Position numbers and translations under genes: made by a program. The notes under the pieces are model-generated. The model ran no database searches. It saw nothing but the letters and a program-made list of their open reading frames with translations, and had not been told where the DNA came from. 64,000 nucleotides of DNA from Bugula neritina (Eukaryota; Bryozoa; Gymnolaemata; Cheilostomatida; Bugulidae), in assembly GCA_964035545.1 (NCBI GenBank), contig OZ037771.1, positions 4,019,128-4,083,127 of the forward strand, in the 5' to 3' direction. Positions 6,001-64,000 of the stretch are shown one piece after another (the first letter of the stretch is position 1; each line of letters starts with the position of its first letter).

Positions 6001-9000
6001 CCACTTGGCGTGAGCTCATCAGTAAATCTGCCTGTTACATGTATGGAATTGTAAAACACACCAAATTTCTCATCCTCCTCTACCTCAAACCCTCACCGTG
6101 TGATACAAACTACTTCCAGCAGGAACAGATAGTGGGTTTTCACTCCTAACTTATGCTAATCAGTGAGCAGAATACATTTACGATGCTAATTCAGTTACAT
6201 GATTACACAGTTTTGTATGTCACCTATGCTAACAGCAATAATTGTACACAGCTTTTAGTTTCCTGAATGTAAGAGTCTAAAAGTTGGTAGACCACAGAAT
6301 TACCATAAGAATAGCTCCTCTAGAACAGAGTGGAACTAGACCGTAGGAAAGAATGTATAACTGAAGTCTGATAGATGCTGAGAATACAGAGAAGTAAAAA
6401 CAGAAGTATTAACAGGATATCAGAGCTGTGGTGAGAACAGATTCCTTGCATAATAGACACCTTGTCCTGTGAACAATTTCTCTAACCTATCAATAGGTAA
6501 AAATGGCACAGGTAATAATGGCACAAATGGAAAGGTAGGTAAATAGCACACTAATGTTAAAGTTTCCCAAACCCCCTAAACCTAAACCCTCCATTCCCAA
6601 CCCCAAACCCTAATATAGGAAATGTGCCATTTTTACCTAATTTGCCATTATTACCTGTGCCATTTTTAGCTGTGCTATTTTTACAAGTCACCCCTCTATC
6701 CAGATTAAATTCATTTGAATTATGCAGTCAAGCTATTAAAAAAGAGTTCGTACAACTTGGAAAACATTGAGTAGATCAAGCTCAATGCTGAAAAATGTTC
6801 AGCGAGCACCAGTAAAAACTTCAGACGATATGATGAGGTCAAACTGAAGAGAAATTCCGCCCAGCTCTGGCAGAAGGCAGGGCGTACGACAGCAATACTA
6901 ATTAGTAGTTAGCGAGGTTTTATATAAATAGTCTGTCAGGTGACTCCATATAGCGCATTCCAGCTAAATAAAGTGTGCAGCAGAGAGAGTTTGGTAAAGG
7001 CATAGTTGCTGAGGGCGTACGTTCTAATTATATAAGTATGAGTGTATACTGTATACTGTGACCGCCCTTTGGGTATTTGCATACTTAATGAATGGCTGCA
7101 TACAGACGCAATCTTCTATAAAACAGCAACTAATTTACTGAACATACCCTAAGATTAGAGTATAAGGTAAGCCCCATGGCTAGTTTTTCATTGAAGTCCT
7201 CAGTCTATTTGACTAAAACTTTACATCAACAGCTGAAGTCATGAGAAGCAGAAATCTGCAGAAATGTTTTGGTACGAAATTCTCCTTGGTTCAGACAGAA
7301 ATTCCGATAAACATTCATGTTTGAAAGTTATCTGCCCTAGTATCTAACATCTGATAATGGTTATCTAAATCAGCAGCTTCAACTTCTGATCCAAGCCAAG
7401 AGATAATAAACGTAAGAACTGCAGAGCTGCAGATGCTGTTATATAGGTTCTAAAACCAACGCAGACGTTTAGTTTTAGTAAAAGAGGGGTCATTCAATCA
7501 GCTACAGTAGTCTCTTCACTAAAACTAATAAACAATTAATAAATACTTAGTCTTTATAAAGTAGTAGTGTTGTATTAGTAGTACATACTATGTAGTTCAA
7601 TATGCCACACCCACAGTGACACTTTTATAAGTGATTAATTCTACAACTCTATTTTAATCTAAACTGGTCTCCAAACATTGAGAATTTGGTATTTCTTTAC
7701 ACAAGATGCAACTGGTATTCTACTACTATTTGTAGAGGGGATCTTACACTCCTGCTGATAAGATGTACTGTAAGGGGGGGGGGCAGCATTTTAAATATTG
7801 ATCTTTTTATATAAGGGTCATTTTATTTAATTTAGTACACACTGGAAATCTCCAGTTTTTAGCTATTTTTCACAATTTAACTGCTAATGAACATGGGTTT
7901 TTGCTCAAAACTAGTAAAATATCAATAAATACACCTAAATAATCAAAGTTTTTTTAATGTTGCATGATTTCCCACGCTTTTCTCTAACTATTCAGCTATT
8001 TTTGATTGCGGTTTTCTTGTAACGGTTCGCAATCAAAAACAGCGAATAATTAGGAAAAAGCATGGAAAATCAAGCAACATTAAAAAAACTTTGATTATTT
8101 AGGTGTATTTATTGATATTTTACTAGTTTTGAGCAAAAACCCATGTTCATTAGCAGTTAAATTGTGAAAAATAGCTAAAAACTGGAGATTTCCAGTGTGT
8201 ACTAAATTAAATAAAATGACCCATAACTATGTCAACAAGTAAACACATCTTAGGCAGAACAGTACACTATACACTACAGTCTACACTATACAGTACATTA
8301 TACAATACACTACACACTATACTACACTATACAGCACTATACACTACACTATACAGTATATACTATACACTACACTATACAGTACACTATACAGCACACT
8401 ATACAGCACACACTATACAATACACTATACTATTGTTGATACAGGATAGTCTGAGTACCTTGCATTTGCCACACTTTAAGGGGCTTCAGCTCATTACTGC
8501 TCTCACTCAAGGCACTCTTGAAGGCCAGCAACTCCTTCTTGAGGTCAGGAAACCTGGTGCCAAGTCTGGTAAAGTTGAAACCTCCGATTTCACCATCCAA
8601 TGGTTCGTCAACAGAATCATCTTCCTACAGAGAGAGAAAGTGGCACATACACATATATAGAATCAGAGACTTGATGGATGTTATAATATGAAGTATAATA
8701 AGCCATTTGTTCACAACACATCTATATGGCATAAAATTAAACACAAAAGACAAGATAAACAGTAAAGCTGAGTAGTTCTATCGCAAGATTCTTCTGTTAG
8801 AGAGAAAACAGGTTTCTAGGTACATATCACTTTCGGAGATAAAATCCTACAACAACGTAAATCTTCGTAGTATATTAGACTGTGTGTAACCCATCCGTTA
8901 TTTCTGTTACTACGAACATCTAGTAAGCGTGTCATGGATTTATAGCCATTATTTATAGATGTAGGAAATATCTTGAGCTTAATCCTAATCTAATGATGAA

Positions 9001-28086: not shown

Positions 28087-31000
28087 ATGTCTTCAGTGAA
28101 GTCATATAAGAAAATGTCTCCAATGCGAATACGGGCTTTTCCAGTGAGTTACTTCTATTAGCAGATCAATTGATTAGTTCTCTAATATCTTGATGCTTTT
28201 TAGAAAGCGTTTTACCAGTTTATATTTGATGAAATAATTTATTCCTTCCTTAAATAAACTAAAAATCTATACTCAAGTTACAACATTATATGAATGTGTA
28301 CAGCTGACAATGATGGTTAATCGAAACATATTGTTAGTTTTCGTTATTGTCATAACAGATGACCATGGATCCAAGGTTTGTGGAAGACATATGGAGTTTG
28401 TTAAAAAATGCAATACAAGAAATACAGAGGAAAAATAACTCGGGGCTCAGTTTTGAAGAGCTGTACAGAAACGCTTACACTATGGTACTTCATAAACATG
28501 GGGAGAGGCTGTACAACGGTCTGAAGGAGGTGGTGACTTCACATCTAGTTGGCAAGGTAAGCCATCATCAGAGACTGTCTTTGGAGTTGTCTTCCTTAGC
28601 CAAAAAGTGGTATTTCTGTAACGTACCCCTTCTCACCCTCAACAAAGCTTGTTTACGGAGTTGTCTACTTTAGAAAAAATTTGTAATTCTGTAGCTTACC
28701 TCCATACTTTCAACAACAGTGATATAATGCTCTGGCAGCTTTCATGATTTAATGTTATGTTTAAAAAAGGTGTTCTTACATTGCCACTTTGTATGCTAAT
28801 TGTAAGACTCAAATGTCTTTGATAAGAATACCTTATTGATTACCTCTTAGATATTAACTGCATTATTGTAAAAGGCAATATGTTTTCTCGCAGGAGTAGA
28901 CAACAACTATCAATTAGTATGTTTAGGAGTATGCCACGACAATATTTGATGTATCAAAAATTGAAACTGTGATTTGTAAAGTCACTATTGTTTGACTGAC
29001 AGCAGTTTGTGATGTTAGCCAATAGTCAGTATAGACTTTCCTCTCGCACGCTGCAACCGAATTCTTGTCAATTCATGATTTTAGGTCCAAAGCGATGTCC
29101 TCGGATCTTTAAATAATAATTTTCTACAAACACTAAACTCTGTGTGGAATGACCACATCACTGCTATGGTGATGATAAGAGATATACTCATGTACATGGT
29201 AAGTGTGTATATACTCATGTATATGGTAAGTATATCTCTACTCAGGTACATGGTAAGTATCTATACTCATGTACATGGTAAGTGTATATACTCATGTACA
29301 TAGTAAGTATATATATACTCATGTACATGGTAAGTGTATCTCTATACTCAGGTACATGGTAAGTATATATATACTCAGGTACATGGTAAGTGTTTATATA
29401 CTCATGTACATGGTAAGTGTTTATATACTCAGGTACATGGTAAGTATATATATACTCATGTACATGGTAAGTGTTTATATACTCATGTACATGGTAAGTA
29501 TCTCTATACTCATGTACATGGTAAGTATATCTCTATACTCATGTACATGGTAAGTGTATCTCTATACTCAGGTACATGGTAAGTATATTTCTATACTCAT
29601 GTACATGGTAAGTGTATATATACTCATGTACATGGTAAGTGTATCTATACTCATGTACATGGTAAGTGTATCTATACTCATGTACATGGTAAGTGTATCT
29701 ATACTCATGTACATGGTAAGTGTGTATATACTCATGTACATGGTAAGTGTATCTATACTCATACGTACATGGTAAGTATATCTCTATACTCATGTACATG
29801 GTAAGTGTATCTCTATACTCATGTACATGGTAAGTGTATCTCTATACTCATGTACATGGTAAGTGGATCTCTATACTCATGTACATGGTAAGTGTATCTC
29901 TATACTCATGTACATGGTAAGTATATTTCTATACTCATGTATATGGTAAGTGTATCTATACTCATGTACATGGTAAGTGTATCTCTATACTCATGTACAT
30001 GGTAAGTATATCTGTACTCATATACATGGTAAGTGTTTATATACTCATGTACATGGTAAGTGTATCTATACTCAGGTACATGGTAAGTGTATTTCTATAC
30101 TCAGGTACATGGTAAGTGTTTATATACTCATGTACATGGTAAGTGTATCTATACTCATACGTACATGGTAAGTATATCTCTATACTCATGTACATGGTAA
30201 GTGTATCTCTATACTCATGTACATGGTAAGTGTATCTCTATACTCATGTACATGGTAAGTATATTTCTATACTCATGTATATGGTAAGTGTATCTATACT
30301 CATGTACATGGTAAGTGTATCTCTATACTCATGTACATGGTAAGTATATCTATACTCAGGTACATGGTAAGTGTATCTATACTCAGGTACATGGTAAGTG
30401 TATTTCTATACTCAGGTACATGGTAAGTGTATTTCTATAAATACAAGTCTTCTTTGCTTATGTTGCTAATGTTCTCTTGAGGTGCAGTGCTATTCCTAAC
30501 ATCCGACAGTTTGTTACTGCTAATTTGTATCTTATAAACAACTTGCAGACAATTGAATAAAACTTCTTTGCTAGTGCCTATATTTTGTAAGTAAACAATG
30601 ATTTGTTTTAATTTTAAAGTTTAATAAATTTTCATCAAATATAGTTGAGATAGTTGGTTGATGGGCTTAAGGAATCAGAAAATGCAGTCTTATCAGTGAA
30701 AGATGACAATTTTGGAGTCATTCCCAAAATGTTTACATTGCTAACTGTAAATTGGGTAAAAGATTTTTCTGGTTTGAATGTGTTGAATTAATTTATCTTT
30801 ATTTTGTGTATGTTTTTCACGCCGTGCATATGAGTATCTAAAGATAATTGTGTTTTACTTGGTTACAGGACCGTGTCTACGTACAACAGCACGAAGTAGA
30901 GAATGTATATAACTTAGGACTCATCATCTTTAGAGATCATGTAATACATCATCATCACATTAGAGAAAAATTGACCTCTACACTCCTCGACATGGTGGCT

Positions 31001-34000
31001 AAAGAGCGAAGAGGTGAAGTAGTGGACAGGTTAGTTGGTTTTTGTTTCACTGATGTGCACTAATTGACCTGTAAATGTTGGTAGTCTTGAGTCCAGTACA
31101 TTGTCCGGTCATGTCATGGTAGGTCTCTGAATTATCCTCTCCTTATTTGTCCCACGAGCTTTACAAACCTTGTATTTGCATTTGATTACTATGTTCATCA
31201 AACAGTAAATATCATTGTGGTATTCATTTGCTGCTTTAGTCTAACGTGAACAATCCTATTCTCATAGTTTATAACTATGCTATTCTGTAACATGACTTCA
31301 CACTTCTTTATAGACAAGAAACTCTTAGTAAATGTGTGTTAGGGTTGCCTACATCTAAACTTTACTAGCGCTTATTGGGAAAAGTATTGTTTTAGTTATT
31401 CAAAGGTACTTGAAACTCTAAAGCTATTGATTTTTGTCTAAGCAATAATTATGCTATTATACCTTGCACTGCATTTCAAGCGTGCACACCTAGTCACTGT
31501 GAACAGTTCATTTCCTAGTATTAACTACTATATATGGACATGAGCCACTGCACTGCGTTGAGTCATGATTGCTCATTGGGTGTTTCTTTCATTAACAAAA
31601 TATCACACAACTTCAACATTAATGTGTGTGTTCATATCTGAGTACAATAAAGTGTGTCTTTAGTCATAAATATCCCCTTTTAGAATATTATATACAATGT
31701 ATTTACTCCTTCTGATATAAAGATATGATTTAAATTTGTAAAAAGTTCAAGTTATAACTGTAGATGCAAAAATGTTGGACATTTATATATAGTTGCAGTT
31801 TTTCTGAGGCTTGTTGATCCCATGAGAAATAAGTTCACAGTAAGTGCCGTATAGCAGTTTATATAATTTACAGGGGAGCCGTGAAGAACGCATGTCAAAT
31901 GCTCATGGCTCTCGGGATAGACTCGAGGACGGTATATGAAGAAGACTTTGAACAGCCTTTCCTCGCCCGGTCTGCTGATTTTTATAAAGTAGGTCTATCG
32001 AGGAGGAGGTGTAGAGTTGCCCACCCTTGTTATCCAATACGTAATGTCGTATTCTACTTCTTTTTCTTTTTGAATACTAGCTTTCTAGTGTGTATACATT
32101 TGTAAAATCTGTAGCCATTGTCTTGAGTCTGTGGCAGCTTAAATTCCAAAGGGTAATAACTCTACATGCACAATATCAAGTTTTATGTTACAACAGAGTT
32201 TCATAAAAGGTTCGAAGTTGTCCCCGCCTTGTTGCCTCCCATATCTTCTACCCGTTTCCTTTATATCTTATCTGAATTTGAAAAAGTTAGATGAACTTTG
32301 GTTGATCTCTTAATCATGTAACAGCCAATCTCATGTTTACTTTTATTATCAACTTTTTACTCTCCCCCCCCCCCTTCCCTCAAAGCCTTATTTAATTATA
32401 GCTATTAAAACTGAAGAACATCAGGCTACTGGCACACCGTGAGTGTTGTCATCTTTATACATGTTTCTATTCTACAGGCAGAATCACAGAAGTTCCTGTC
32501 CGAGAATGACGCGTCCACATACATACGTAAGGTTGAGGCGCGGATCTTGGAGGAGGGGGAGAGAGCACGTCACTATTTAGATAAGTCTACGGAGGCCCCA
32601 GTCATAGCAGTACTGGAGCGAGAACTCATTAGTAGACATATGAAGTCTATAGTGGAGGTACCCTGTTTAATACATCAGTAATTCGCATCCCTGTCAATTT
32701 AAATTTTAATGTGTTTTATATCTGATAGATATTGATAAATTTAAGAAGTGTTAGCTGAATGAGATCTGTCTAGTTTCTCTATTTATATTTTATACAAGTG
32801 TTTTTCAAATGTACAAACCTCTTTTATTTATATTTTTCTATATTTTGTTCATCTTTCAGCTAATAACCTAGATGACAATTTGTTTGTAAAGTTAAGGGTT
32901 GTAATTATTTGGAATAGATAAAATATCTACTTTTGGCTAAAGTAAATGTGCCTTTGGAACATGTTTAGGTTTATCGCATGTAATGATACATTTGCAGCTT
33001 GTTCTAGTCACTTAGCAATTTTTCTGGAGTTGTCTTTCTATATATATAAGGAATCCAAAGCTGTACAAAACTTAATGTAAACCTTCCATACAACTAGTTG
33101 TTTACAACTAGTTGTATGGCTTGTCATACTTGCTAGGCAAATAACTTCTGCTTTAATATATTTGGCTTTTTTGAAAGTTATCACTTGAATTTATTTGCTC
33201 TACCTTTTACTTCAGTAATTTTTTTTCGATATACATTGTAATTTCATTCATGAATTTACTAATGCCAGACGCACCAAGTGGCCGTCATGATTCATTTGGT
33301 CTTTATGTTGTTTATCACAGTTGCTATGGTAATCTGTAGATGGAGAATTCTGGAGTCATACACATGATAAAGAATAACAAGCACAAAGACCTAGCCTGTA
33401 TGTATAAACTACTATGTAGAGTGGAAAGCGGGCTGCGTACCATCTGTCTCACTATTAGCCGTCACTTGCGAGAAATCGGTAAAGGTTTAGTAGCCGAAGA
33501 CGAGGGCACAACTCCCATCACCTATGTGCAGGTAAGGCTGTTTGCTCAGGAACTTGGACTGTGTTTGGCCATAGTAACGGTTTATTTACATTTACATGTC
33601 GCTCTACCAGTAATTTGTTTTGTTTTTAATATTTAATTATATTTCTCCGCTGTCTTCAAGGGTTAGTGCTGCTCGTAAGATTATGGTTATGGAATTGACT
33701 ATGATATGTTGTATTGTCCCCTATTTTGATTTTAATCAATTTCTTTTGTTTCTTGTGTTCTCATTGGCCAAAATTATTTTGTTTATTGTATTCTGATTGG
33801 TTAATGCCGTGATATCTCTGGTTTTGTAGGGTCTGCTGGACCTGAAAGACAGATTCGACCAGTTCCTGTATGAGTCATTCAAGGGAGACAAATACTTCAA
33901 ACAGATAATGTGTGGTGACTTTGAACACTTTATAAACATTAATAGCAAATCCCCAGAGTACCTGTCTCTCTTCATAGACAACAAACTAAAGAAGGGTGTC

Positions 34001-37000
34001 AAAGGGGTACGCCCTCTACTAGTGTATCTATGTAGCTGTAGTCTATAACTACTCTATATCTACTCTATAGCTACTCTATATCTACTCTATAACTACTCTG
34101 TATCTACTCTATAGCTACTCTATATCTACTCTATAGCTACTCTATAACTACTTGGTATCTATTCTATAACTACTCTATAACTACTCTATAACTACTCTAT
34201 AGCTACTCTATAGCTACTCTATAATATGCAGTACTTGTGATGTTTCGTGTCTATGGAGTTGACCCATATAAAGCTTGCACTGCGGGCAACTGTTAATTAC
34301 TTTTCATTGTATGAACTTTGCCATCTCAAAAACTTTCACCTCAATGATAATTTGTAGGCTAAATTATAAATTTATTCAGGCATCAACTGTTTTGGAACCT
34401 CACATTCAATAAATTTTCAAGTTAACTTTGGCGTTACTATGACCTTGAGAAAGTGGATGTACTGATCTCGTTGCAGATGACAGAACAGGAAATAGAAGCA
34501 GTTCTGGATAAGTGTATGGTGCTATTTAGATTCCTCCAAGAGAAGGATGTGTTTGAACGTTACTACAAACAGCATCTGGCCAAACGTCTCCTCCTAGACA
34601 AGAGCATGTCTGATGACTCCGAGAAAAACATGATCAGTAAACTAAAGGTGAGACTCTTTGCCTTTCAAAGGTTTGAAATTGTGTTTCTATGCTGAAAATA
34701 TTTTTTGATGTCATAAGAAAACTTGATATTACCACCGAGACGTATGCACCAGAAACATGGAGGCATTCTGGGAGATCAAGTTACATAGTTCAACAGTATT
34801 TGTTTGCCTTCTAGAATATGCTTTACAGTGTACAGAACACTGAGTTGCTTCAATTAATACATTGTAAACTTTAAAGAAAGGTATATTTAAACATAAAAAT
34901 TAAACCATAAAAATTAAAACTAGTGGAGCCCCTCCTTGTGGTACTGGCTTTATTGTTCATTACACATATATAAACCTGAGGCTCATAATATTCTATAAGT
35001 TTTCTTTATGGAGAATAAATTTTGTGCACTTGATTAGTCTCAATGTATTAAAAGTAGAGAGCAATTGTGACATCATTTATTATGACTCGATCGTGGGTTA
35101 TAAATTCTGTTTGTAATTATACTACATGACGATATATGATATATATAGCCTGTTCTATAATTCAGTTGTTATCTTCCCATGCTGCATGTTCTGTTCGCTA
35201 TGCTGACTTCTAACATGTTTATAATTACACTATGTATACTATTATGTATAACAAGTTCCACACTTGAGCTGCATATCCTGTTTCCTATGCTGACTTTGCT
35301 ATAAATTTCTCTGCTCGTGTATTCACAGACAGAGTGTGGCTGTCAGTTCACGTCTAAACTGGAGGGGATGTTCAAGGACATGTCCATATCCAACAGCACA
35401 ATGGAAGACTTCAAGACTCACTGTCACACGGCCGGCTCTGCGGAGACGGTGGGTAACCTGGATCTCATGGTCAGGGTGCTCACCACCGGCTTCTGGCCCA
35501 CCAACTCTGTCGCCAAGTGTATTCTACCAGCTTCCGCCAGTAAAGCATTTGAAGCCTTCTCCAGGTAGTCATCATTATAACTCAGGCTTGTCTGCTCTTT
35601 CGTTTCAACCTCAAGCTATGTCTTGTGCTCAAAAACATTTTATGGTTTCAAAGGAAAAGTAAGAGTTGTGTTTACCTATAGTTTTCTAGCAACTGATAAT
35701 AATCAACAAAATTGGTTGAGTTTTTTGTAGCAGTTGATTGTAGCAATGCTCATTGTGGAGTTATCCTTCTATGATTTTACCAATAATATCCCTTTTAGAC
35801 AAATAGCTATAATTATGAACCTATAATTTTTCACTTGAAAATTCAGCTGTTTATTGAATCTCAGATGATGATAAGCTGGAAAGTGGCATCTTTAGTGTAG
35901 TTTTGAAATGTTTGGCTTGGAGTTGTCTAACCAGCTGCGTCTACCTAGCTGTGTTTATAGTGACTTGCTTGTTCCTAGTTGCCAGTTGGGAAGCTGGACA
36001 ATTAGGTGTTAATCAGTACGTTTTCATGTGCTCCAAATTCAACGATACTTTCGGTTTTTAAATATTTTAGAAGTATAGCCTTAAGCACTGGATTTCATTA
36101 CACCATCTCCGGACACTACTACACAATACGTTGTGTCGTGTATAAACATTGTAATGTGGAGCTCTCCGGTGTATAGCTCTCAGCTGTAAGTGTTGTCTGT
36201 TTACTTCTACATATTCTTAGTGAGAATAAGTTAAATTGGAGTTACTCTCTCTTTACAGATTCTACCTTGGAAAGCATACTGGTAGACAGCTCACACTACA
36301 GTCTCATCTAGGAATGGCAGACTTGAATGCCATATTCTACGGTACTCCGTCGTCTCGCAGTAAAGACACGGCGTCAAACTCGTCACTCACATCACTGAAA
36401 CACTCGGACGGTAGAAAACATATACTTAGTGTGACCACCTACCAGATGTGCATACTTATGTTATTCAATTCTCGCACACAATGGACTTATGAAGATATGA
36501 AGAGCGAGACAGATATTCCCGACAAAGACCTAACTAGAGCCTTATTACCCTTGTCTATGGGAAAAGTGTCGCAACGGGTGCTCATTAAGGAACCCAAGTC
36601 TATGAATATAGAACCCACTCACGTCTTCTCTGTCAATGATAGCTTCCAATCCAAACTCTACAAGATCAAGATCTCCCCGCGTAAGTTGACCCCCCTCTCC
36701 CACACACACAGCATGTCATGAGATAATGGGCCTGGTTAACTTTTTGTACGAGTGATTATTTTTTGCAGTATTGAATGACACTTTATAGAATTTCTTTACA
36801 ACTATTTGCTGAGCATTTAAGGGAGTTATTTGCAAACCATGTTTAACATAGCGGATGTTGCATTTGTATATAATGTGATTTTGTATGATCTTCAAACTAA
36901 GTTGACTGATATAATATGACGGAGAATTCTGTCATTCTGCTGTTGTTAACATCTGACTAAAGATGAACTCTGAACTTTCTATGCAGTTGCTGCCAAGGGT

Positions 37001-38280
37001 GAGTCAGAACCTGAGAGGAAAGAAACTCGTATGAAAGTCGATGAAGATAGAAGATACGAAATAGAGGCTGCCATTGTACGAGTCATGAAGGCGAGGAAAA
37101 AGATGCAGGTATGTAATAAGTGGTGTGTGAAATCATTCCTCAGTTACTTGACTGGTGCTGGAGTTGCCTCGCCCTGTTTGTACTTATATGTATGGTGTAA
37201 TGGTTTGTATGTTGGAAACAATACACTCAGTTAACATGAAGTCCACTATGGGCTCGTCTCAGGAGAGGAATATTGCAACAAATCAATGCTCCTGTTGCCA
37301 TGCATTTGAATTCAGTCAAAATGGGATCTCGTCTAATAAATAATTCAGCGTTTTACATCAGATTTCACTGAATGCTGACGTATTGCCGTGAATGCTGACC
37401 ATATGTTGCTGACATTCAGCTCTTCAGATCAATAACCTTACTACTCTAGAGGTATGCATATCATCTCCTCTTTTGTTTCAGCATAATATTCTCATAACAG
37501 AAGTGACTGAACAGTTGAAGTCTCGGTTTATGCCCAGTCCTACGGTCATCAAGAAGAGAATTGAAGGTCTGATAGACAGAGATTACTTGGCACGCAGCCA
37601 AGAGGACATGTAAGTCACCCAACATCATCACCCCGGTAGCCTTAGTACCAGGTTTACACTGTGTGGTTAATAGCCATTGTACCAACGCACACAATGCGCA
37701 GTGAAATCTTACCCAAATCCAGTTCGAAGTTTTGCAATAAGTGTTGAAAAAAAAAACATAAAATGCGAAAACGCCCAGTGTTTGTTAAGGTGTTACGAGG
37801 TTCTCAGGCGTTTGACTGGCCCCAACTCCAGGGCACAGTCTTGCACCACTAAGTATCTGCTAAGTAGTTAAAAAAGCTGAAGATGCATGAACACCTGAGT
37901 GTCTTATTTGTTTGGGTGTCTTTAGGTATAATGTGCATTTCTTAGCAAAGACATAGTTATGTAAGAAGTATCTGTTTTGGTTCGTAACTGTAGCATCTCA
38001 AAAAGTAAATTCAAACTATTATGAGGTTAAAAAGGTTGTTTCCTTTTTGCACTTGGTAATTTTGTAGTTGCAGGGTTTACATGCAGCTCAGAGAGTTTAG
38101 CTGAGAGTAAAATAACAAACCTTGGTGCATAAATGATTAATAACCAATCACCTGAGAGCAACTGGTAGCTATGGAGTGTTTTATCTCGTATATTGTGACA
38201 TACTTGGTGTCATCTATTGCTCTACTGCTTACCATCATATGTCGTTGTGTTGTAGCAAGACGTACACATACGTGGCATAA
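28087..38280 (+). CDS. CUL3: Cullin-3, complete, 14 exons, 765 aa
   Basis: Scaffold of CRL3 ubiquitin ligases: the N-terminus binds BTB substrate adaptors and the C-terminus binds RBX1. Exons: 28087-28143, 28359-28556, 29085-29198, 30869-31029, 31874-31988, 32478-32657, 33340-33531, 33830-34006, 34477-34647, 35329-35564, 36259-36680, 36987-37108, 37482-37609, 38256-38280. The sum is 2298 nt, 765 residues, against 768 in human CUL3. MRIRAFP then [12 protein letters not shown] matches the CUL3 N-terminus, and [20 protein letters not shown] is identical to the human segment as I recall it. The cullin-homology region ([40 protein letters not shown]) and the winged-helix/neddylation site [16 protein letters not shown] (Lys709) are intact. 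The last exon is only 25 nt and encodes the conserved C-terminus KTYTYVA. Exon 3 ends in an amplified donor array. Confidence 0.97.
29184..30440 (+). repeat. About 45-copy minisatellite derived from the CUL3 exon 3 end plus its 5' splice site
   Basis: The true exon end (ATACTCATGTACATG at 29184-29198) followed by gtaagtg is the first unit. The block recurs about 45 times with 23-31 bp spacing (mean about 28), almost always keeping the ACATG|GTAAGT core. Variants are ATATGG, CAGGTACATGG and one CATAGTAAG. The separators are GTATCTCT/GTATATAT/GTTTATAT-like. A private variant CATACGTACATGG occurs at about 29761 and 30157, showing duplication of a larger block. Open frames on both strands (YTHVHGK, ILMYMVS) are by-products. 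Confidence 0.97.
33086..33119. repeat. Perfect 16-bp inverted repeat with 2-nt loop in CUL3 intron 6
   Basis: CCATACAACTAGTTGT (33086-33101), TT, then its exact reverse complement (33104-33119). Function unknown. Confidence 0.85.
34041..34222 (+). repeat. CTACTCTATA minisatellite next to the CUL3 exon 8 donor
   Basis: Roughly 17 copies of an 11-bp unit (CTACTCTATAN, with A, T, G or C variants) begin about 35 bp downstream of the exon 8 donor at 34006. Confidence 0.9.
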
Positions 38281-38785: not shown

Positions 38786-41700
38786 TCAACTAGACACATG
38801 TTTCTGGTTGCATATAGAGAGTAAGTTTTGTGGCAGTCGTTTCTCGGGCCGAATGGTGAAGTATTGGGAAAGGCGGTGGCGTCTCTTGGGTCTACTAACT
38901 TGGCGGTATCGTAGTTTAGCCTTGTACGCGTGGTCTGTGTCAGATGTGTAGTTTCCACACATGTAGCAGTATACCAACTCTTTCTTCTGCTCTATTGCCT
39001 TTATCCTCTTTTTAATCTGCAAAAACATGCTGGTAGAGTAGAGTTTGATGCATTACAACACATTTCCCACTAACTGAGATGAATGGCTGTACAGTATGGG
39101 GATTGAAGTGGTTGGAGACAGTATTGTGAAATTTTATATATAAAATAACTTGAAGAGTCATAAACATTTGAACCCTGCCAAGACATTAAGTGAGGGAGGA
39201 GAAAAATTTAGGCTAGAGTCGCTGGTGGTGACATGAAGGGCATCAGCTCGCAATTGCCTCTTACTCTGTAGCTGCATATTGCCAACATGGAAAATTTACA
39301 GTCATCTGCTTAAACTAGTATTGTACCTGCAAATGAATGTTGGTACTAAACGCTAGCTGTTTTTAAAGTACAAGAGGAGATGATAACACGACAGCTGCCA
39401 GAAGGGGTGTCGAGAGAGTACATACCTTGGGTAAATAGATATTCTTGAGTGGTATACTGGCATACGGAGTATCAATTAGATTGTAATGTATTCTATGCCT
39501 TCCATTGGGTAACTTGGTTTTTGCTGGTTTCCGTTTAACCTTGACCTTAATCTGTGACTTTGCAATGCTTTCCAACTCATCTTTAGAAGCAGTTCCTCTT
39601 CCTGAATCTGCTTCTTCCATATCTAAAAATCAGGACAAATCCTTAAAGAATTCTAAAGATATAGCAGTGTTGCATCGTGCATTCTTGGTTACTGCGAGTT
39701 TTGAGCATGTGGGAGTTGTAACATGTTAGTATGAGCTGATGGTAGGAGCAAGAGAGATTAAAGCTGTAGAAGGAAGAGCTTGACAAGTATTGACAATAGC
39801 TACTATTATGAATCGTGCTCTAATTTTAGTATAGTTTAGCTCCATGCACATGATATAACTATTAACTCCAAATTAGAAAATATTATGTGGCCATAAGTGA
39901 CTATTTTGATGTATTTACTGACCTGAGTGTTCGCTGTTAGGCTGTTTTTCACCGAGCTCGAGATACAACTCCGAACACTGTCTACACAAAGACTGCATAT
40001 CTTCATCTTCCAGTGCTGTAATATTTATATTATATACACATGTGAGTAGATATGCATATACTGTATATATATTCGTTTTTTCGAATTTTGGTAAAATACT
40101 ACTACATGTGCTACTACCTAAAAGTCCATATCCTAAACTCTAGAAGATCGATTTTATCTAGCATGTGAAGTTTGGATTTCATGTAGCAGACAAACTGTGA
40201 AATTATTATAAGACTGCTGTATAGATGAATAAGTTACAGAATGTAACACTGATGGGAACAACCCTAATCATTGAAGAAGTAGCCTGTAGCTGTGATAGTG
40301 GGAAGGCATCTCTTCAAACACACCATTTGCTATTTACCTAATTGATCATCTTGATCCGACTGTGGACTGTTTGGCGGGATCTCTGAATCAGTTCCCTCTT
40401 CTGAATTAGCTTCTGGCGTTTTCAGGGGAGGGGGAGTAATGGTTTCCTCTTGCTCATGGGCTTTAAGGTAGGGAGAAGGTGGAGGTGAAATAACCTGATG
40501 ATCTTCATGGAAAGGAGAGGGTGGGATTGGGGTTAGCCCATTCTCTAACTCTTCACCTTTAAGAAAAGGAGAGGGTGGGATGGAGGTAAGCCCGTTCTCT
40601 AACTCTTCACCTTTAAGAAAAGAAGAGGGTGGGATGGGGGTAAGCCCGTTCTCTAACTCTTCACCTCTAAGAAAAGGAGAGGGTACTTCTTCCTACAACA
40701 GTAGAAACCACCTTTAACTGTTTTGCTCTCATCAGTAATTTCATAGTAATTATATCTGAATCTTCAGTTGTGTTCAGTTTTTACAAACATGAATATTTGA
40801 CAATATGTGATAAAAATAGATCCAGTATATGCTAATTATTAGTAACATAAATTGGAAGACAGTGATATGCACAGAGCAAAAGAAATTGTGAAAAAGGTGA
40901 GACAAGGTCAACTGGGTGTCAGATTAGTGTTGGTAAGTTCTGAGTCATAAAGTAAATTACCCTCTCGCTATCAGTTTCATCATCACTGCTGCCGGTCGCT
41001 ATTGGAAACTGTCGTTTTGATAATGGCTTGTCATCTAATTTTTCTGCTCCATCTTCTGCTGTCTGGTCATCATCAGATTCTTCTTGGAGGTAGTGAAGAA
41101 ATTGATTAAATGCTTGAATGTCTAAATAAAATAATTACAGTCATTAGCATTCCAATAGATAAATTTGATACATTTTCAATATACTTACGTAAATAGTGTG
41201 TTGCTTGTTAATCATTGAGTAATTTGCAAATAAAAGTTTGCTATTTACACATTGATACCTACAAATTGAAATTGCAAAAAGCGCATTTGAGTTAGTTTAT
41301 TGTTTTGCAGGACAAAGGCGTGTAGTTGTCAATATTTTAAAAACATTTTGTACTCTTTAATCGAAATCTCGTGATAAGCTGCAATATCGGCAGCTTCTAT
41401 TGAAAGTGTCTTTATGTATTGATAAACATAGACTTTTGACAACTGATGAAATTAGAATTTACGGTTCAAACAGCAAACTTTTACCATTATGGTCAATTGA
41501 AACATTCACTACATATCATCTTTATCTTTAGCCTAAGGAAACAATTATTTATTGAAGTAATATAGTTCAGCACACCTTTCTACATTTCCGAAACATCATG
41601 CTTTAAAACATTTTTCAGGATAGAATTTTAATTGTGAAGCTTAAAATTATAATAAAAGCATTTCCTAAAAAACTGTTGAAACTTTTTATAATGCATTTTG

Positions 41701-47439: not shown

Positions 47440-64000
<16,561 letters not shown>

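Follow-up and report, generated by a model that had tools for sequence, protein, structure and literature searches.

The window, by which we mean the whole 64-kb stretch of Bugula neritina DNA analyzed here, contains a CUL3 gene on the plus strand with a large tandem array at the end of one exon, and an exon of an ABCC-type transporter with a smaller array (Table 1). The original prediction had named CUL3 as the host gene, and this was borne out by Pfam Cullin matches, by tblastn matches spanning 28359 to 37607 (with a human CUL3 query) and by a splice model of 13 coding exons from 28087 to 37609, in which the exon at the array is coding exon 3. The model carries an error after exon 11. Its 673 residues are identical to the deposited Bugula neritina CUL3 (100% after rounding, with one difference found by eye), and the next-closest CUL3 protein, among the best 120 of 4001 matches, is that of Watersipora subatra (80%), which places the host at B. 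neritina or a near sibling species among the cheilostome bryozoans. The array takes up 1241 of the 1670 nt of intron 3, and the other 11 modelled CUL3 introns range from 215 to 844 nt.

Table 1. Features at the CUL3 and ABCC loci of the window, and two arrays from the surveyed 264-kb block (a slash marks a splice boundary).
Feature	Position	Strand	Basis or remark
CUL3 coding exon 3, 114 nt, ends ...ILMYM	29085..29198	+	tblastn and splice model; Pfam Cullin profile 69-97
Junction-spanning tandem array, 45 copies	29183..30439	+	TRF, consensus TATACTCATGTACATG/GTAAGTGTATTC
Authentic intron 3 donor, in copy 1	29199..29204	+	Cullin profile 97/98; deposited protein without insert
CUL3 intron 3	29199..30868	+	Splice model
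Copy 2 donor, in frame, +27 nt (VSVYILMYM)	29226..29231	+	Frame walk, translation
Copy 3 donor, in frame, +54 nt	29253..29258	+	Frame walk
First stop codon in exon 3 frame, within copy 5	29301..29303	+	Frame walk
CUL3 exon 4 (DRVYVQQ...)	30869..31029	+	Pfam Cullin profile 98-147
Minisatellite in CUL3 intron 8, 11 bp x 16.6	34042..34224	+	Begins 36 nt past exon end; donor not spanned
ABCC-type transporter exon, ends ...ILFATHQLQ	55988..56120	+	PDB ABCC5, E = 2.3e-9 (55989-56120)
Donor-spanning array AACCCACCAACTTCAG/GTGAGT, 5.1 copies; copy 1 is the ABCC junction	56105..56217	+	TRF, unit reading
FAM92 array, 34 copies of 24 bp	L033:7354-8166		Starts ~4 nt into intron; adjoins donor rather than clearly spanning it
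Cav2-type acceptor array, AGTCTGTATTGTAG/CG x7	L049:1029-1143		Exon E = 4.3e-17 to N-type calcium channel

TRF analysis of the 64-kb window reported 45.1 copies of the CUL3 repeat with a period of 27 and a score of 1782, which agrees in position and copy number with what had been proposed, and also a higher-order period of 338 bp within the array. As the original prediction had read it, each unit joins the end of exon 3 (its last ~16-17 nt) to the start of intron 3, namely GTAAGT and a variable spacer. The array holds 45 donors, a count from one assembly whose exact value is uncertain, out of 74 GTAAGT on the plus strand of the window; the 44 spacings between them are 27 nt (22), 29 nt (20) and 25 nt (2). 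GTAAGT is kept in all 45 units and is preceded by G in 44 of them (the lone exception reads ATA/GTAAGT), so that 44 of the 45 copies retain ATG/GTAAGT. The donor context is ATG/GTAAGTGT in 30 units and ATG/GTAAGTAT in 13, while ATA/GTAAGTAT and ATG/GTAAGTGG occur once each.

Comparison of whole units revealed 23 versions among the 44 that follow copy 1, with 17 versions of the spacer across all 45 (the partial spacer of copy 1 counted). The longest repeated run is four units long, units 22-25 being the same as units 36-39, which together with the 338-bp period points to exchange inside the array. The same diversity bears on whether the array is an assembly artefact, or a repeat collapsed or expanded in assembly. 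Such arrays are difficult to assemble, and one amphioxus minisatellite of similar type seems to be aberrantly assembled in a draft genome (in excerpts of PMC3087553), but the 23 distinct versions and the position of the array inside a 15.8-Mb contig make this explanation very improbable.

Because profile position 97 of the Pfam Cullin domain ends exon 3 and position 98 starts exon 4, splicing at the donor of copy 1 restores the conserved protein, and the first unit is the functional junction, as had been suggested. The deposited B. neritina CUL3, which may be a gene model only, reads ILMYM/DRVYV at this point, without an insert. All three aligned CUL3 proteins (B. neritina, W. subatra and Lingula anatina) share ILMYM, the residues that the array's exon letters encode, which indicates that these letters are old coding sequence and that the exon seeded the array. 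Judged from these alignments, the array grew out of exon 3 and not the exon out of the array.

To follow the consequences of donor choice, the reading frame of exon 3 was walked through the array. The first three donors stay in frame without meeting a stop (+0, +27 and +54 nt), donor 4 shifts the frame, and donors 5-45 lie past the first base of the first stop codon. Full-length CUL3 is predicted to be possible from donors 1-3 only, with 0, 9 or 18 additional residues, and since no other donor avoids a frameshift or stop, this fits strong pressure for the use of upstream donors. Exon definition, an established feature of splicing, applied here to the 114-nt exon 3 and taken together with the loss of frame past donor 3, would lead the cell to use the first donor.

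A minisatellite with multiple splice donors was reportedly described in the human IFI6 (6-16) gene by Turri in 1995. There, two downstream repeat units act as donors and three mRNA species result (in excerpts of PMC4526556). The human repeat unit bears a donor at the exon end, as the CUL3 unit does; the CUL3 donors differ in being spaced by 25-29 bp with the frame lost past the third, and the CUL3 array is known from genomic sequence alone. The CUL3 array might act in a similar manner, donors 1-3 being truly used and three CUL3 proteins being made that differ by 0, 9 and 18 residues in the N-terminal cullin repeats. The three open in-frame donors, followed by the frameshift at donor 4 and the stop at 29301, would suit such an isoform generator, as would the IFI6 precedent, but the deposited CUL3 lacks an insert (with the reservation about gene models made above), and an insert would separate residues invariant in the three aligned CUL3 proteins. 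We therefore consider production of the longer proteins rather unlikely.

The donors of the array had been called a strong match to U1, and in sequence they do fit well to its 5' end. A 19-nt block, ACTCATGTACATGGTAAGT, is the same in 28 of the 45 units, and the remaining 17 carry five other versions. Changes within the block are confined to its 13 exon-derived letters (ACTCATGTACATG; altered from their commonest form in 17/45 units), and none falls in GTAAGT. The comparison of GTAAGT with the separators came out as proposed, with 0 changed units out of 45 against 17 spacer versions in the 45 units. Selection as the cause of donor conservation is not established: GTAAGT is the least variable portion of the unit (0/45 vs. 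17/45), but the varied units hold only about five kinds of change, and five changes placed at random would spare 6 given positions out of 19 with a probability of (13/19)^5 = 0.15, so that the contrast is not significant. The constant GTAAGT beside the varied exon letters could still reflect weak selection on the donors.

One functional explanation is that the array binds U1, its dense sites sequestering U1 or blocking premature polyadenylation at two AATAAA motifs (30556 and 30623) located between the array and the end of intron 3. Forty-five good matches to U1 do stand upstream of both motifs, and GTAAGT is constant in 45/45 units while the adjacent exon-derived letters vary in 17/45. However, that contrast amounts to five kinds of change (P ~0.15), arrays of like layout that span acceptors in this genome need another explanation, and among 90 anagrams GTAAGT comes fourth by the arrays that it forms in a 264-kb block. 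Such a function, proposed from the sequence, seems improbable to us.

The ABCC donor is also repeated, by a 22-bp unit present in 5.1 copies ~26 kb downstream of the CUL3 array and unrelated to it in sequence. The ABCC exon gave no hit in Pfam at the threshold applied. Spliced to the following exon, it aligned with ABCC5 without gaps across the junction (E = 3.2e-21). A survey of a 264-kb block on the contig that holds the window gave 33 arrays with periods of 10-120, three or more copies and a length of 90 bp or more. For at least 8 of the 33, homology supports a splice junction no more than ~20 nt from an array edge, a lower bound since the homology search covered only hand-picked flanking open frames. 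These are CUL3, ABCC, FAM92, a NAXD-like gene, a UGGT-like gene (Thioredoxin_15), two EMP70/TM9SF acceptors and a Cav2-type acceptor. Four of the 33 arrays (CUL3, ABCC, NAXD-like and Cav2-type) have units that run across the junction. Both 5' and 3' splice boundaries thus carry arrays in this genome, as seen at the Cav2-type acceptor; the NAXD-like acceptor is weakly supported, with a Pfam E of 3.2e-4 that misses the curated cut-off and a PDB E of 0.046. The Cav2-type array offers seven AGs, the last of which is the authentic acceptor, and a TACTAAC branch-site-like motif lies just upstream of the array. Another ion-channel acceptor (Ion_trans, E = 5.4e-10) lies at the end of a shorter array, of 2.5 copies. 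Several candidates were left uncounted, namely a GPCR-like array (L038) with marginal exon support (Pfam E = 0.0024, PDB E = 0.0069), a second UGGT-like exon and two exons at L046 without a homology match. Ten further pieces gave three Pfam matches (Ion_trans twice, Med4 weakly), none of which was counted within 20 nt of an array edge.

On contig C1, five GTAAGT arrays were viewed, three of which (L051, L052 and L053) had been chosen because they read AG/GTAAGT. L051 and L052 begin at the end of an open frame and repeat its exon letters in the unit; what marks them as exons is an open frame running up to the donor, of 58 and 115 codons respectively, with no Pfam family match for either and no PDB match for L052. 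For L001, L019 and L053, no exon ending at the array was found by eye. In six cases it is the copy bordering the exon that forms the authentic junction, namely the first copy at the CUL3, ABCC, L051 and L052 donors and the last at the Cav2-type and NAXD-like acceptors. Introner elements are marked by related sequences at many loci; the five units compared here, those of CUL3, ABCC, L051, L052 and the Cav2-type array, look mutually unrelated by eye.

Genome-wide, GTAAGT triplets spaced 8-38 nt number 24,099, compared with 682 for the reversed pattern. With ~8 matches per array (100 matches in 12 arrays, among the C1 matches listed), this extrapolates to ~2,900 GTAAGT arrays in the genome. We rejected the 35-fold excess as a donor signature because GTAAGT is only 4th of 90 anagrams by arrays in the 264-kb block; the reversed pattern is a poor control, since TGAATG forms no arrays there. 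Among the C1 matches listed, 3 of the 12 plus-strand GTAAGT arrays have G at position -1. Two other measures were set aside: the donor motif in the units of 121 arrays was uninformative (7 vs. 3 in the reversed control), and a codon-usage score for exons placed CUL3 exon 3 itself below the random median. The probability of finding 8 of 33 arrays near junctions ranges from 3.8e-5 at 0.5 junctions per kb to 0.27 at 2.52 per kb, the density in CUL3, so a preference of arrays for junctions is possible but not established.

These figures leave some room for the view, which we hold to be somewhat unlikely, that GTAAGT arrays arise because minisatellites here favor certain motifs, their overlap with real donors being partly coincidental. 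The excess of GTAAGT triplets over reversed ones would follow from such a preference, but AGTGTA, AAGTGT and GTATAG each outnumber GTAAGT in arrays across the 264-kb block. Three of the five C1 arrays viewed lack, by eye, an exon ending at the first unit. However, the units of CUL3, ABCC, L051 and L052 hold gene-specific exon letters in addition to the donor, which indicates that those units derive from the junction.

In all likelihood, the CUL3 array is a junction-seeded minisatellite, or 'mirage', which was tolerated since its outermost junction stays functional and was then enlarged. It would have started with a short tandem duplication that took in ~16 nt at the end of exon 3 together with the first part of intron 3, and of the two copies the upstream one would have retained the authentic exon end and donor. 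With these kept, the protein would be unchanged and the extra copy absorbed into the intron, so that the duplication may have been neutral. Slippage during replication of the AT-rich spacer, along with unequal exchange, may then have raised the number to 45 copies and partly homogenized them. Exon definition on exon 3 would favor the first donor, leaving the internal donors as passive decoys, though copies 2 and 3 may see a little in-frame use, and a like process may have acted at other donors and acceptors of this genome. Tolerance of this kind predicts that donor arrays keep the junction in the first copy and acceptor arrays in the last, and that both kinds occur; the six cases with the junction at the exon, CUL3 included, agree with this prediction.

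The splice-junction minisatellite is a known kind of array. In amphioxus, mirage minisatellites occur in Adh3 and globin genes and also in troponin C, with imperfect ones in PGBD5, and many units retain splice signals, those of Adh3 being 10-72 bp long (excerpts of PMC3087553 and PMC3902484). They affect both kinds of boundary (PMC3087553, in part), and the same is seen for donors and acceptors in the B. neritina genome; the CUL3 and ABCC units also share with them that they span the exon-intron boundary. The host differs in being a bryozoan, and the CUL3 array has 45 copies against 6 and 3 in two BflGb6 globin haplotypes, as far as excerpts of the amphioxus reports go. Adh3 data and globin RT-PCR suggest that regular splicing is undisturbed in amphioxus, and length and somatic instability have been reported at Adh3 (excerpts of PMC3087553; also PMC3902484). 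Splicing accuracy and instability have thus been examined in amphioxus, according to these excerpts, whereas what we describe of the CUL3 array comes from its DNA letters only. Tandem duplication involving splice signals is also the basis of the Rogers model, in which introns are gained through tandem duplication of AGGT segments (excerpts of PMC4974935; a further paper on tandem repeats, duplication and intron gain is PMC2812944), but the CUL3 copies lengthen an existing intron at its donor, and no new intron is seen. Among the matches listed in a search of titles and abstract openings of the open-licence literature, no splice-junction arrays were reported in Bryozoa. The CUL3 array is therefore of a known type with a high copy number, in a host phylum that is new so far as this literature search shows.

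Splice-boundary minisatellites have been described for amphioxus and human genes (excerpts of PMC3087553, PMC2812944, PMC3902484 and PMC4526556), and several such arrays in a bryozoan suggest an independent origin of the process in distantly related animals. The CUL3 array offers a natural experiment on spliceosome choice among 45 near-identical donors: 42 of the 45 shift the frame or lie past the stop, so if CUL3 is made normally, the rule of choice must be strict. Junction arrays are also a simple source of change in intron length. It is conceivable, if speculative, that bryozoan introns grow largely through splice-junction minisatellites, with hundreds to thousands of them genome-wide at donors and acceptors, fast turnover, and occasional in-frame isoforms such as CUL3 with +9 or +18 residues.

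Other repeats and frames were found in the window and the surveyed block. A 54-bp x 3.2 repeat on the minus strand (window 40511-40684) lies beside an open proline-rich minus-strand frame with no Pfam match; its unit is a multiple of three, and it is perhaps a coding minisatellite. Similarly, a 30-bp x 5.6 repeat (L047:2272-2439) lies beside and within an open Ala/Pro/Glu-rich frame, also with no Pfam match. At window 6495-6684 and 52519-52767, 15-bp motifs (AGGTAA.AATGGCA and the complementary TGCCATT.TTACC) form facing short tandem runs, which are possibly the ends of a small transposable element. An open frame of 1318 codons (L041:4685-8638) is probably a retroelement.
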